Source of the DNA: Streptomyces sp. NBC_00162
GTDB taxonomy: Bacteria; Actinomycetota; Actinomycetes; Streptomycetales; Streptomycetaceae
Assembly (NCBI RefSeq): GCF_024611995.1
Contig: NZ_CP102509.1
Coordinates: 4,650,001-4,714,000 of the forward strand
Length of the DNA: 64,000 nt
Reading direction: 5' to 3'
A program made the position numbers and the translations under genes. The first letter of the stretch is position 1. Each line of letters opens with the position of its first letter. This document shows, one piece after another, positions 20,770 to 23,049 of the stretch. The notes beneath the pieces are model-generated. The model ran no database searches. It saw only the letters and a list, made by a program, of their open reading frames with translations, and was not told where the DNA came from.

Positions 20770-21777
20770 TCAGGGCCGGGGCTCCCGGGCGGGGCCCGAG
20801 ACCTGGCCCAGGATGCCCGACTGGGCTATGAGGAAGCCGAGTTGGGCGCGGCTGCCGCTGCCCAGGGCGGTGGCCAGCTTGGCGATGTGCGCGCGGCAGG
20901 TCCGTACGTTCATGCCCAGGCGGCGCGCGATGGCCTCGTCCACGTGCCCCTCGACGAGGAGTTGCGCGATGGAGCGCTGAACGCCCGAGATTCCCGAGGG
21001 CGTCGGATCGTACCGGATCTCCTCCAGCAGCGGCGTGGCACGGCGCCAGAGCTGCTCGAACACCTTGATGAGGTATTCGACGAGACCGGGGTGGCGCAGT
21101 TCGAGGGCGACGCTGCGGTCATCGCTGGCGGGGATGAAGGCGACGGTGCGGTCGAAGACGATGAGGCGCTCGATGAGTTCCTCGAGGGTGCGGATCTCCA
21201 CCTTGCCCGCGGATATCCGCTCGACGTAGGCGAGCGTTCCCTGGCTGTGCCGGGCGGTGTGCTGGTAGAGGGTGCGGATGCTGACCCCGCGGTCGGTCAG
21301 CGGCTGGTCGCGCTCCAGGGCCTGCGTGAGGGCGTCTATGGGGCGGGCTCCGCCGGGCTGGACGGTGAGCATCTCCGTGTGGCATTCGGCGGTTGCCAGG
21401 TTCAGTGCCGCGTTGATGCGGTCGAACCCCTCGAGCACGGTGATCGCGTGCGTGGGCGCGGGAGTCAGCGCGCTGATGGCCATGAATGGCTCAAACGCTT
21501 CCGCCAGCTCGATGGACGTCCTGCGGCGTTGCAGGATCTCCCGCTCGATAGGGTGCAGCCGCTGGGTGAGTGCGACGGTGGGGGGAACCGGGCGCAGCCA
21601 GTTCGCGTCATCTGGATCCGGGTGCAGCAGCGCGAATTCCAGCAGGCAGGGAGTGTATTCGACCTCCGCGCGGGCGATGCGCCCCGAGCTGAGCGCAGTG
21701 GCGTAGAGCTCGGCGCCGAGAGCGCACAGTTCCGTCACTGGGTGGGGATGTGTCTGTTCCGCACCATTTTTCGGCAT
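20770..21777 (-). CDS. LuxR-type helix-turn-helix regulator with TrmB-like sensor region
   Basis: A 335-residue regulator. The C-terminal LuxR helix-turn-helix is at about residues 268-330, with RSIAQLLVEGHVDEAIARRL and GMNVRTCRAHIAKLATALGS. The front part (ILQRRRTSIELAEAFEPFMA, AECHTEMLTVQPGGARPIDA, GVSIRTLYQHTARHSQGTLA) looks like the phospholipase-D-like sensor found in Streptomyces LuxR proteins that lack a receiver domain. ATG 21777 has GGGGG eight bases upstream; GTG 21786 is an alternative. It is divergent from the DSGWT peptide gene and is its likely regulator. Confidence 0.85.
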   Translation of the reverse strand: MPKNGAEQTHPHPVTELCALGAELYATALSSGRIARAEVEYTPCLLEFALLHPDPDDANWLRPVPPTVALTQRLHPIEREILQRRRTSIELAEAFEPFMAISALTPAPTHAITVLEGFDRINAALNLATAECHTEMLTVQPGGARPIDALTQALERDQPLTDRGVSIRTLYQHTARHSQGTLAYVERISAGKVEIRTLEELIERLIVFDRTVAFIPASDDRSVALELRHPGLVEYLIKVFEQLWRRATPLLEEIRYDPTPSGISGVQRSIAQLLVEGHVDEAIARRLGMNVRTCRAHIAKLATALGSGSRAQLGFLIAQSGILGQVSGPAREPRP

Positions 21778-21797
21778 ATCTCCCACCCCCAGGGTCT

Positions 21798-21834
21798 TGC
21801 ATCTACAGGAACATGATGCACCGCCACGGTGGCG
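21798..21834. promoter_or_regulatory. Candidate operators between luxR-like and DSGWT peptide genes
   Basis: TGCATC (21798-21803) and GATGCA (21815-21820) form an inverted repeat with an 11-bp spacer. The palindrome CGCCAC-G-GTGGCG follows at 21822-21834. Both lie in the 111-bp divergent promoter region. Binding by the LuxR-like protein is inferred. Confidence 0.45.
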
Positions 21835-21888
21835 TCGGCGTGGCTCGATAAGTCATCGTCTGTCATGCGGGGGAGAGGAATCCATCCA

Positions 21889-22107
21889 GTGAGGACGAAG
21901 TCGACGATGTACAAGAGATTGCTTCGCTCGGTGGTTGCCGTTGCTCTCTCCACGGTTGTGGCTTACGGGGTGGCCGGCGGCAACACAGCCACGTTGGCGG
22001 GGATATCGGACGATAGCGGCTGGACCAGTGCTCCGGTGGACAGCGGGTGGACGCTCGGCCCTCTGGACAGTGGGTGGACCAACCTGCCGGAGAAGGTCGT
22101 CGCATGA
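21889..22107 (+). CDS. Exported peptide with three perfect DSGWTxxPx repeats
   Basis: A 72-residue precursor. VRTKSTMYKRLLRS is basic, then VVAVALSTVVAYGVAGG is a hydrophobic export segment. After NTATLAGISD come three 9-residue units, DSGWTSAPV, DSGWTLGPL and DSGWTNLPE (DNA 22012-22092), then KVVA. There is no Cys, so it is not a lanthipeptide. The repeat design resembles multi-core peptide precursors or a small cell-surface repeat protein. GTG 21889 has GAGAGG about ten bases upstream; ATG 21907 would give 66 residues. The stop overlaps the next start (ATGA), so it is coupled to the Rieske-like gene. Confidence 0.85.
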   Translation: MRTKSTMYKRLLRSVVAVALSTVVAYGVAGGNTATLAGISDDSGWTSAPVDSGWTLGPLDSGWTNLPEKVVA

Positions 22108-22418
22108 CCCCCGACGACCGCGGCTTCCGCCGCGAAATGGCCTCCGCTTACCGGTCGGGGTGGCAGTTCATCGACCTGGCCACGGCAATCCCGTACCCCG
22201 GGGATTCGCTGATGGTCACCCTGTTCGGTCAACCGATCGTCGTCGTGCGCGAGGAGGACGAGGACGTACGTGCCTACCGGTGCCTGCGCCGCCCGCGGGG
22301 CGCGCCGCAGCCCGTCCGCTGCGAGGTGCGCTACGGAATGGTCTTCGTCAATCTTGATCAGCGCGATCACCAGCTCTTCGAACCCGACATCACCACCGCC
22401 ACCCCCCGCAGTGCCTGA
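22104..22418 (+). CDS. Rieske-like protein without cluster ligands
   Basis: A 104-residue soluble protein coupled to the peptide gene by a 4-bp overlap. SGWQFIDLATAIPYPGDSLM, VTLFGQPIVVVREEDEDVRA and YRC match the front of Rieske oxygenase domains (W..., pGD, g.PivvvR..dg.vrAy.nvC). The sequence after it reads LRRPRGAPQPVRC where CPHRGA and C-x2-H are expected, so both histidines are missing. It then continues with YGMVFVNLDQ, as oxygenases do after the Rieske domain. It probably cannot hold a [2Fe-2S] cluster. The role is unknown; it may bind or escort the peptide. Confidence 0.75.
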   Translation: MTPDDRGFRREMASAYRSGWQFIDLATAIPYPGDSLMVTLFGQPIVVVREEDEDVRAYRCLRRPRGAPQPVRCEVRYGMVFVNLDQRDHQLFEPDITTATPRSA

Positions 22419-22461
22419 AGCGATTCCCCCGTCGTTGCAGATCGCTCAGGCGCTTCCCCCA

Positions 22462-22505
22462 CACAACGGCGCCATCGTGGACCTGACCACGATGGCGCCG
22501 TTGTG
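22462..22505 (+). terminator. Terminator of the DSGWT/Rieske-like operon
   Basis: A 19-bp perfect stem, CACAACGGCGCCATCGTGG (22462-22480) with its complement at 22487-22505 and a 6-base loop. It closes a two-gene transcript. Confidence 0.92.
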
Positions 22506-22575: not shown

Positions 22576-22980
22576 TCAGGCCCGGCCCATGGCCCGGTCC
22601 AGCGTGATCTCCATGACCACCCGGTCGGGATTGGGTGAGGGCGTCCGCCCGTAGCGCTCCGCGTAGCGCGCCACCGCGTCGGCGACCGACGCCTCGTCCG
22701 TACGGATCACCGCGCGCCCCTCGAGGGTGGCCCAGCGGCGTCCTTCCATCTGGCAGACCGCGACCCGGGCCGCGCCCGGCTGCGCCGCCAGGATGTTGCG
22801 GATCTTCTTGCTGTGCTTGTTGCTGATCACCCGGGCCAGACCGGCCTCCGGGTCGTACGTCACGCCCACCGGCACCACGTGGGGCGTCCCGTCCGGGCGC
22901 GGCGTGGTCAGCGTGCAGACGTGCCGCTCCCGCCAGAAGGCGAGGTACTCGGGCGTCGGGTTGAGTACGTCATGGGACAT
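22576..22980 (-). CDS. PPOX-class F420/flavin-dependent protein (FDOR-B like)
   Basis: A 134-residue split-barrel protein of the pyridoxamine-5'-phosphate-oxidase fold: YLAFWRERHVCTLTTPRPDG, TPHVVPVGVTYDPEAGLARV and ARVAVCQMEGRRWATLEGRA. In actinobacteria this subgroup (TIGR03618-like) usually uses coenzyme F420 and reduces unsaturated substrates; the exact substrate is unknown. ATG 22980 is the first good start. It is divergent from clpB and 128 bp away, so it may share its promoter region including the HAIR operator. Confidence 0.85.
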   Translation of the reverse strand: MSHDVLNPTPEYLAFWRERHVCTLTTPRPDGTPHVVPVGVTYDPEAGLARVISNKHSKKIRNILAAQPGAARVAVCQMEGRRWATLEGRAVIRTDEASVADAVARYAERYGRTPSPNPDRVVMEITLDRAMGRA

Positions 22981-23028: not shown

Positions 23029-23049
23029 CTTGAGTGGAATAGACTCAAC
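23029..23049 (+). promoter_or_regulatory. HAIR (HspR) operator of clpB
   Basis: CTTGAGT (23029-23035), 7-bp spacer, then ACTCAAC (23043-23049), one mismatch from the consensus CTTGAGT-N7-ACTCAAG. It lies 59 bp before the clpB start. Confidence 0.9.

Follow-up and report, generated by a model that had tools for sequence, protein, structure and literature searches.

Here we present a three-gene cassette of Streptomyces sp. NBC_00162 that probably encodes a pheromone circuit, in which a pentapeptide is read by a cytosolic receptor unlike the tetratricopeptide repeat (TPR) receptors of the RRNPPP systems. The cassette lies in a window of 64,000 nucleotides (contig NZ_CP102509.1, positions 4,650,001 to 4,714,000, assembly GCF_024611995.1) and consists of the genes for a repeat-bearing precursor peptide, a small Rieske-like partner protein and a divergent LuxR-type regulator. 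According to our model the precursor would be exported by means of its signal-peptide-like start and cut into pentapeptides of the form [D/E]-x-x-W-x, DSGWT in the window strain. These would be taken up again, possibly by an oligopeptide permease, and bound by the PLD-like sensor of the LuxR-type receptor, which would then switch the shared divergent promoter via a conserved dyad. Related species would represent different pherotypes. Support for this circuit is comparative and comes from sequence: a sharply bounded five-residue unit, co-variation of that unit with the sensor and N-terminal parts of the regulator, co-occurrence and co-loss of peptide and receptor, and receptors with DxxW neighbours at paralogous loci. 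The features, in window coordinates, are as follows.

20770..21786, minus strand: LuxR-type regulator of 338 residues, proposed pheromone receptor (open reading frame; AlphaFold2 model and fold matches; co-variation with the peptide unit)
21795..21819, plus strand: imperfect dyad TCTTG-N6-CAGGA plus ACATGATGC, conserved, candidate operator in the shared promoter region (alignment of 31 representatives; dyad scan)
21889..22107, plus strand: precursor peptide of 72 residues with a basic N-region, a hydrophobic core and three DSGWT units (GTG start at 21889; alternative ATG at 21907)
22012..22026, plus strand: pentapeptide unit 1, DSGWT (sequence, repeat comparison)
22039..22053, plus strand: pentapeptide unit 2, DSGWT (sequence, repeat comparison)
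22066..22080, plus strand: pentapeptide unit 3, DSGWT (sequence, repeat comparison)
22104..22418, plus strand: Rieske-like partner without cluster ligands, 104 residues (open reading frame, profiles, alignment, AlphaFold2 model)
22462..22505, plus strand: perfect 19-bp hairpin, possible terminator (inverted repeat 22462-22480 / 22487-22505, 6-nt loop)
22576-22980, minus strand: PPOX-type gene, named by eye (open reading frame)

This layout agrees with what the initial annotation had read from the same letters. The 72-residue precursor has a signal-peptide-like start and carries DSGWTSAPV, DSGWTLGPL and DSGWTNLPE in exact nine-residue register. Its gene overlaps that of the ligand-less Rieske-like protein by ATGA (22104-22107, with the partner ATG at 22104 and the peptide stop ending at 22107), the LuxR-type gene is divergent and the 19-bp hairpin is present, with no T-run in the sequence 3′ of it.

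The unit under constraint is a pentapeptide. We compared up to 411 repeat pairs from 81 loci, counting positions relative to the tryptophan. Repeats of one precursor are identical at 0.97-1.00 from -3 to 0 and at 0.90 at +1, and identity falls just outside, to 0.31 (-4) and 0.20 (+2). Comparison across loci gives 0.11 at -4 and 0.17 at +2, and also only 0.23 at -2 and 0.17 at +1. Proline is frequent at +4 with an agreement of 0.56, equal within and between loci, and might be part of processing. The pattern kept across loci is [D/E]-x-x-W-x, near-identical within one precursor and variable between species (DSGWT, DTGWT, DPGWH, EPSWE and DISWD are examples). Sixteen four-letter types occur in 80 loci: DSGW 20 times, DTGW 13, EPTW 10, EPSW 9, DPGW 8, DISW 5, and ten rarer ones. 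The repeat that the initial annotation had expected to find conserved is thus conserved as this pattern, while the DSGWT letters themselves vary between species and the number of [D/E]-x-x-W copies ranges from 1 to 9 over the 81 loci, with 10 in L150. Its nine-residue period is exact in the window strain but does not extend to other loci, where the constant unit is five residues and W-to-W spacings run from 8 to 29 over the 81 loci. Across 2644 codon pairs of the units (N also admitted at the first place) third codon bases are identical at 0.67 and residues at 0.92, so selection, and not recent copying alone, keeps the residues of the unit. In 12 of 110 precursors the chain ends exactly at W+1, as it does in several peptides of paralogous loci. 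The simplest reading is that the mature product would be a pentapeptide. A search with a peptide profile matched 17 of 61 genomes, mostly weakly, and those in G002 and at G000:C1:3369092 are probably chance matches.

The unit and the sensor co-vary. Distance tests used 75 of the 81 loci, those in which the full set of five genes could be located. Motif and sensor distances are correlated (r 0.71; partial r 0.60 given neighbour genes); the corresponding partial values are 0.17 for the LuxR helix-turn-helix (HTH) and 0.14 for the partner. Neither the partner (-0.04) nor the neighbours (0.01) contribute to motif distance once sensor distance has been taken into account. FastTree trees agree: the 14 motif types, for which 13 changes is the minimum possible, need 17 changes on the sensor tree and 17 on that of the LuxR N-terminal part, against 27 for the HTH, 27 for the partner and 29 for the neighbour genes. 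For coarse motif class the fewest changes are 5 (sensor), 6 (N-terminal part), 12 (HTH), 12 (partner) and 14 (neighbour genes). Among locus pairs with a neighbour distance below 0.05 the sensor distance is 0.036 when the motif is the same (48 pairs) and 0.191 when it differs (28 pairs), and further bands of neighbour distance give 0.145 versus 0.210, 0.158 versus 0.232 and 0.209 versus 0.360. By clade, the partial r of motif and sensor is 0.81 in 24 loci and 0.83 in 7. The unit follows the N-terminal and sensor parts of the regulator better than it follows species, the DNA-binding domain of the regulator or the partner. Such a pattern is expected if sensing part and signal pass on as one inherited unit, to which the partner mostly does not belong. 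The earlier suggestion of a signalling peptide gains support from this co-variation.

The pattern can be followed at the DNA level in the clade of 24, of which 22 loci (13 EPxW and 9 DPxW) were used. Between types, identity is 0.82-0.84 for the LuxR HTH, 0.66-0.74 for the remaining LuxR gene, 0.84-0.91 for the partner and 0.19-0.41 for the repeat region (0.21-0.66 within types). In the intergenic region and leader it is 0.52 between types and 0.85 and 0.87 within them. Within-type LuxR identity is 0.70-0.84 for EP and 0.84-0.90 for DP. The LuxR sensor, the intergenic region and the peptide leader differ most, HTH and partner are equally alike between and within types, and the hspR-side spacer aligns poorly in all loci of this clade.

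Peptide and receptor genes also occur together and are lost together at this locus. A core set was taken from a partner-profile scan of genome contigs as the best 80 of at least 486 confirmed relatives, and is biased towards close relatives; an even sample covered 394 genomes of the class, including 40 Streptomyces. In the core set a [D/E]xxW peptide lies directly upstream of the partner in 80/80 loci and a divergent LuxR gene is present in 80/80. The small partner occurs in 31 of the 40 Streptomyces of the even sample. These contribute 29 further loci, and every one has the peptide: a script recognised it in 28, and in L145, which has N in place of D, it was identified by eye. Coordinates put a divergent LuxR gene next to the partner in 30 of the 31; in the remaining one, L283, this gene is split over two frames. 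All nine partner-less Streptomyces of this sample retain hspR, and the stretch read behind it holds no LuxR gene, partner or peptide of this kind in any of the nine; in three of them that stretch did not include clpB. When N was allowed at the first place one frame appeared in one of the nine (L281), which we judged to be chance. Another 20 genomes outside Streptomyces gave partial, low-scoring matches to the partner profile within long frames (365-646 residues), presumably Rieske oxygenases. The three genes thus stand together in 110 of 110 locus records (80 plus the window plus 29, with at least one probable duplicate, L163 = L019), as the initial annotation had asked of a functional cassette. 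Elsewhere this does not hold, and because regulator/DxxW-peptide pairs without the partner occur there, it is the partner, rather than the peptide, that the data point to as the dispensable part.

Paralogous receptor genes provide such pairs. We counted signal-peptide-like open reading frames (ORFs) with [D/E]xxW near the C-terminal end at 69 paralogue loci and in 400 kb elsewhere, after excluding 2 duplicates and the loci on two id lists, one of 16 core and one of 16 tandem loci, not all of them in the survey. The motif lies at most 12 residues from the end in 18 of 119 paralogue-locus ORFs and in 1 of 176 background ORFs (p 4.4e-7), and at most 8 residues from it in 12 versus 0 (p 1.3e-5). 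All 18 were counted, including L107, L199 and L205, judged chance, and the pairs L180/L181 and L202/L203, judged orthologous. This background replaced two earlier ones: the first found 1 of 407 ORFs in core-locus flanks, which are homologous to each other, and, in the window, the motif somewhere in 4 of 38 other signal-peptide-like ORFs, one near the C-end; the second gave 22/149 versus 1/66 (p 0.0016) with frames inside LuxR genes counted. Near-terminal motifs of the paralogue peptides include DDQWG, DERWG, DLGWG, DLAWG, DMGWQ, DLGWQ, DAGWQ and DPGWG, with DNNWP found three times and DFVWP twice. Outside Streptomyces, 10 stretches and 5 further loci yielded one clear case, DLTWG in L287 from another family of the order. 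Plasmids gave 118 matched records, of which six were examined: three have annotated small proteins ending in DSAWG, DTSWGG and DTSWGG. In the other three the motif is DENW in L299, where the frame lacks a signal peptide, DTEW in L300, where the frame is some 1.8 kb off, and absent in L303.

An AlphaFold2 model of the receptor, built from 41 relatives (mean pLDDT 79.9, pTM 0.54), together with fold matches, divides it into a TrmB-like N-terminal part, a helix (69-107), a PLD-like sensor (about 110-255) and a LuxR HTH (about 256-326). The Pfam GerE match is below its cut-off (19 versus 23.5 bits), and the modelled C-terminal domain resembles LuxR-type HTH structures. The PLD catalytic motif HxKxxxxD is absent from all 41 aligned receptors. 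Relatives, among the 120 listed, are mostly named 'helix-turn-helix transcriptional regulator' or 'hypothetical protein'. The family is present in 17/17 Streptomyces at E <= 1e-20 with 1-11 copies each. With stricter limits it was found in 60/60 genomes from the order (1e-40) and, phylum-wide, in 7 of 119 (1e-35), 4 of the 7 outside Streptomyces. Two to four receptor paralogues stand in a row at the core locus, with a single recognisable peptide gene, in L172, L175, L177, L178, L186, L188, L200 and L227; some copies in these rows look truncated.

Since TrmB-like and PLD-like folds may bind sugars or lipids, the receptor could sense another ligand of that kind, the peptide being an extracellular product under its control and sensor and peptide co-varying by linkage because they are exchanged together. 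We regard this as unlikely. The partner is equally adjacent on the other side and yet follows the motif far less (27 changes, and -0.04 given the sensor); moreover, DxxW peptides recur beside paralogous receptors, and the constrained unit is a sharp pentapeptide.

The Rieske-like partner bears on a second alternative. It scores 17.6 bits against Pfam Rieske (cut-off 20.3) and matches NCBIfam GbcA at E 7.8e-7, but the 27.9 bits fall far short of the cut-off of 670. In profile comparison it corresponds to the beginning of Rieske oxygenase alpha subunits: phthalate dioxygenase is matched at E 9.4e-5 (positions 5-68), the later strand is present as a trace, and R-x-P aligns at the place of the CxH ligands. 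The ATPRSA tail is invariant in twenty aligned partners and the LRRPRGAP core nearly so, and none of them has CxH or CxxH. Among 120 of the 157 relatives found, none has the CxH...CxxH ligand pair (two have CxH, none CxxH). The database name '(2Fe-2S)-binding protein' given to these relatives is doubtful because the ligands are absent. The AlphaFold2 model is small and beta-rich (pLDDT 76.7); Foldseek gave no match at E 0.001 or better, and the weaker ones listed (from E 3e-3 on) are Rieske oxygenases or ferredoxins.

A partner of this kind could help to modify repeated tryptophan cores, with LuxR as a regulator only, which would make the cassette a multi-core locus resembling those of ribosomally synthesized and post-translationally modified peptides (RiPPs), as was first suggested. 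The tandem cores, the invariant tryptophan, the overlap of peptide and partner genes and the co-variation of partner and motif in a clade of 33 loci (partial r 0.38) would suit it. Nevertheless we consider this reading improbable: the partner lacks the cluster ligands and over all loci does not follow the core when the sensor is allowed for, its gene is single-copy in the window genome, and no partner is known at the paralogous receptor/peptide pairs. No RiPP maturation enzyme lies between hspR and clpB, the rest of the genome not having been searched for one. More improbable still is a bacteriocin-like peptide under LuxR regulation, with immunity conferred by the partner. The hypervariable peptide and an Imm35 match of the partner, though a very weak one (E 0.09), would lend themselves to it, but an immunity protein should co-vary with the peptide and it is the sensor of the regulator that does so, the partner being highly conserved and mostly not following. 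In the pheromone circuit the partner would be a Streptomyces-specific accessory of this one locus, perhaps one that tunes the circuit.

The promoter shared by the LuxR and peptide genes contains a conserved block, GGGTCCTGAAT-TACAGGAACATGATGC, with a TCCTG/CAGGA dyad, in an alignment of 31 representatives anchored on the right half of the block. With 0-1 mismatch and a spacer of 5 or 6 the dyad occurs in 63 of the 80 core loci (33 exact); 11 have only poorer versions and 6 none. In the window the element matches once, and its 16-bp right half has no other match in the genome at fewer than 2 mismatches. We infer that the block may be the operator of the receptor.

Several points weigh against the pheromone circuit. 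Mature peptide, export, uptake and binding are all deduced from sequence; TrmB-like sensors bind sugars, and a pocket for a peptide is not evident from anything here. In the largest clade (33 loci) the partial r of the sensor is only 0.25, and the partner is the stronger. Mantel permutation leaves relatedness in, and the HTH and partner trees have few variable columns, which possibly inflates their change counts. The edges of the EPxW/DPxW block are blurred, the between-type identity of the LuxR gene being little under that among EP loci, and the repeats also vary within types; the block is real despite these edges. No convincing dyad is found in the intergenic regions of L101, L103 and L105, and eight further paralogue loci have loose matches, unplaced relative to the genes. 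A longer dyad pattern is not enriched genome-wide (114 matches at <=2 mismatches versus 150 for a reversed-pattern control), and a second site in the genome is not evident. At paralogue loci, 51 of 69 lack such a peptide in our scan. Among the five closest paralogues in the window genome, L101 and L103 have a peptide, L105 has a near-miss (SINWD, with Asp one residue further from W), and L102 and L104 have none. Orientation varies too: the peptide is convergent in L180, L181 and L202, on the same strand in L196 and plasmid L298, and divergent but more than 800 nt away in L132, L135 and L176. Pairing of receptor and peptide at paralogue loci is common rather than general, in about a quarter of them.

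The nearest known systems are the RRNPPP systems of Firmicutes (Rap-Phr, PlcR-PapR, NprR-NprX and ComR-ComS), among which the Phr signals are pentapeptides. As modelled here, the cassette shares with them a small precursor of apparently exported type, a short linear peptide, a cytosolic receptor encoded next door and co-variation of receptor and peptide, the last described for ComR/ComS (PMC8605241). The precursor lies beside the receptor gene in all 80 core loci, with its export predicted from sequence features. Unlike RRNPPP receptors, the receptor here is modelled as TrmB-like, PLD-like and LuxR HTH over most of its chain, not as TPR repeats; the precursor is usually a tandem DxxWx array, and the hosts are Streptomycetales. 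As in the agr and com pherotype loci of staphylococci and streptococci, signal and sensing part differ together between related strains and the effector part is shared, a pattern found here on the 75 loci and weak in the clade of 33. The cassette differs from those loci in its one-component cytosolic regulator, in having neither a histidine kinase nor a thiolactone enzyme, and in less clean block edges. The archaeal regulators TrmB and TrmBL2 lack the extra C-terminal LuxR HTH and the paired peptide gene seen here. Gamma-butyrolactone signalling in Streptomyces likewise ties diffusible signals to antibiotic control, but our signal would be a ribosomal peptide, not a lactone, and the receptor is unrelated. 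We also considered whether the unit might be the signal that S. coelicolor imports through BldK, and abandoned this idea because evidence for it was lacking.

The cassette is flanked by the dnaK-grpE-dnaJ-hspR genes on one side and clpB on the other. Upstream of clpB, at 23030-23048, lies an HspR-type operator, TTGAGTGGAATAGACTCAA, which matches the published TTGAGY-N7-ACTCAA (PMC2687793). In S. coelicolor clpB is SCO3661 (PMC2687793) and hspR SCO3668 (PMC2631018). SCO3665 (327 residues) and SCO3666 (394 residues) appear in a table of LuxR-family regulators from which SCO3664 is absent (PMC3282765), and a transposon screen names SCO3664, called 'regulator', among the insertions that raise actinorhodin more than 50-fold (PMC6585502). 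By gene number SCO3664 falls in the cassette interval, an uncertain assignment that serves as a lead only. In several genomes (L178 is an example) three receptor genes follow one another and the core copy adjoins the peptide gene, an arrangement with which SCO3666-3665-3664 would agree. S. violaceoruber (P0066), which we take to be a close relative of S. coelicolor, has the partner, and so does S. venezuelae (SVEN_3427).

On balance we favour a wider interpretation, with somewhat less assurance than the circuit itself: a widespread, so far unnamed class of pentapeptide pheromones in Streptomycetales, of the form [D/E]-x-x-W-x, with TrmB/PLD-like LuxR proteins as receptors. Pherotypes at the core locus would be species-specific, and each genome would have several paralogous channels, a part of them next to secondary-metabolite genes. 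The S. coelicolor core channel (SCO3662-SCO3667 interval) may act to restrain actinorhodin production. Firmicutes are well known for peptide quorum sensing; in the open-licence PMC papers, the literature covered, we found no such peptide circuit in Streptomyces and no description of this system. If the interpretation is right, a pentapeptide language with core-locus pherotypes and paralogous channels would be an addressable signal for antibiotic producers, synthetic peptides could wake or silence gene clusters, and PLD-like domains would join the known kinds of peptide receptor.

Among the paralogous loci, L103 (G000:C1:2595959-2596588) has a receptor paralogue with a divergent DVGWN peptide and adjoins a thioesterase-like gene (by eye), possibly of a secondary-metabolite cluster. 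On plasmid L298 (NZ_CP107895.1) the receptor and DSAWG peptide adjoin genes annotated as 2-ketoarginine methyltransferase and beta-methylarginine biosynthesis. The plasmid peptides of L301 and L302 have a cysteine near their DTSWGG end and are perhaps a separate subclass.
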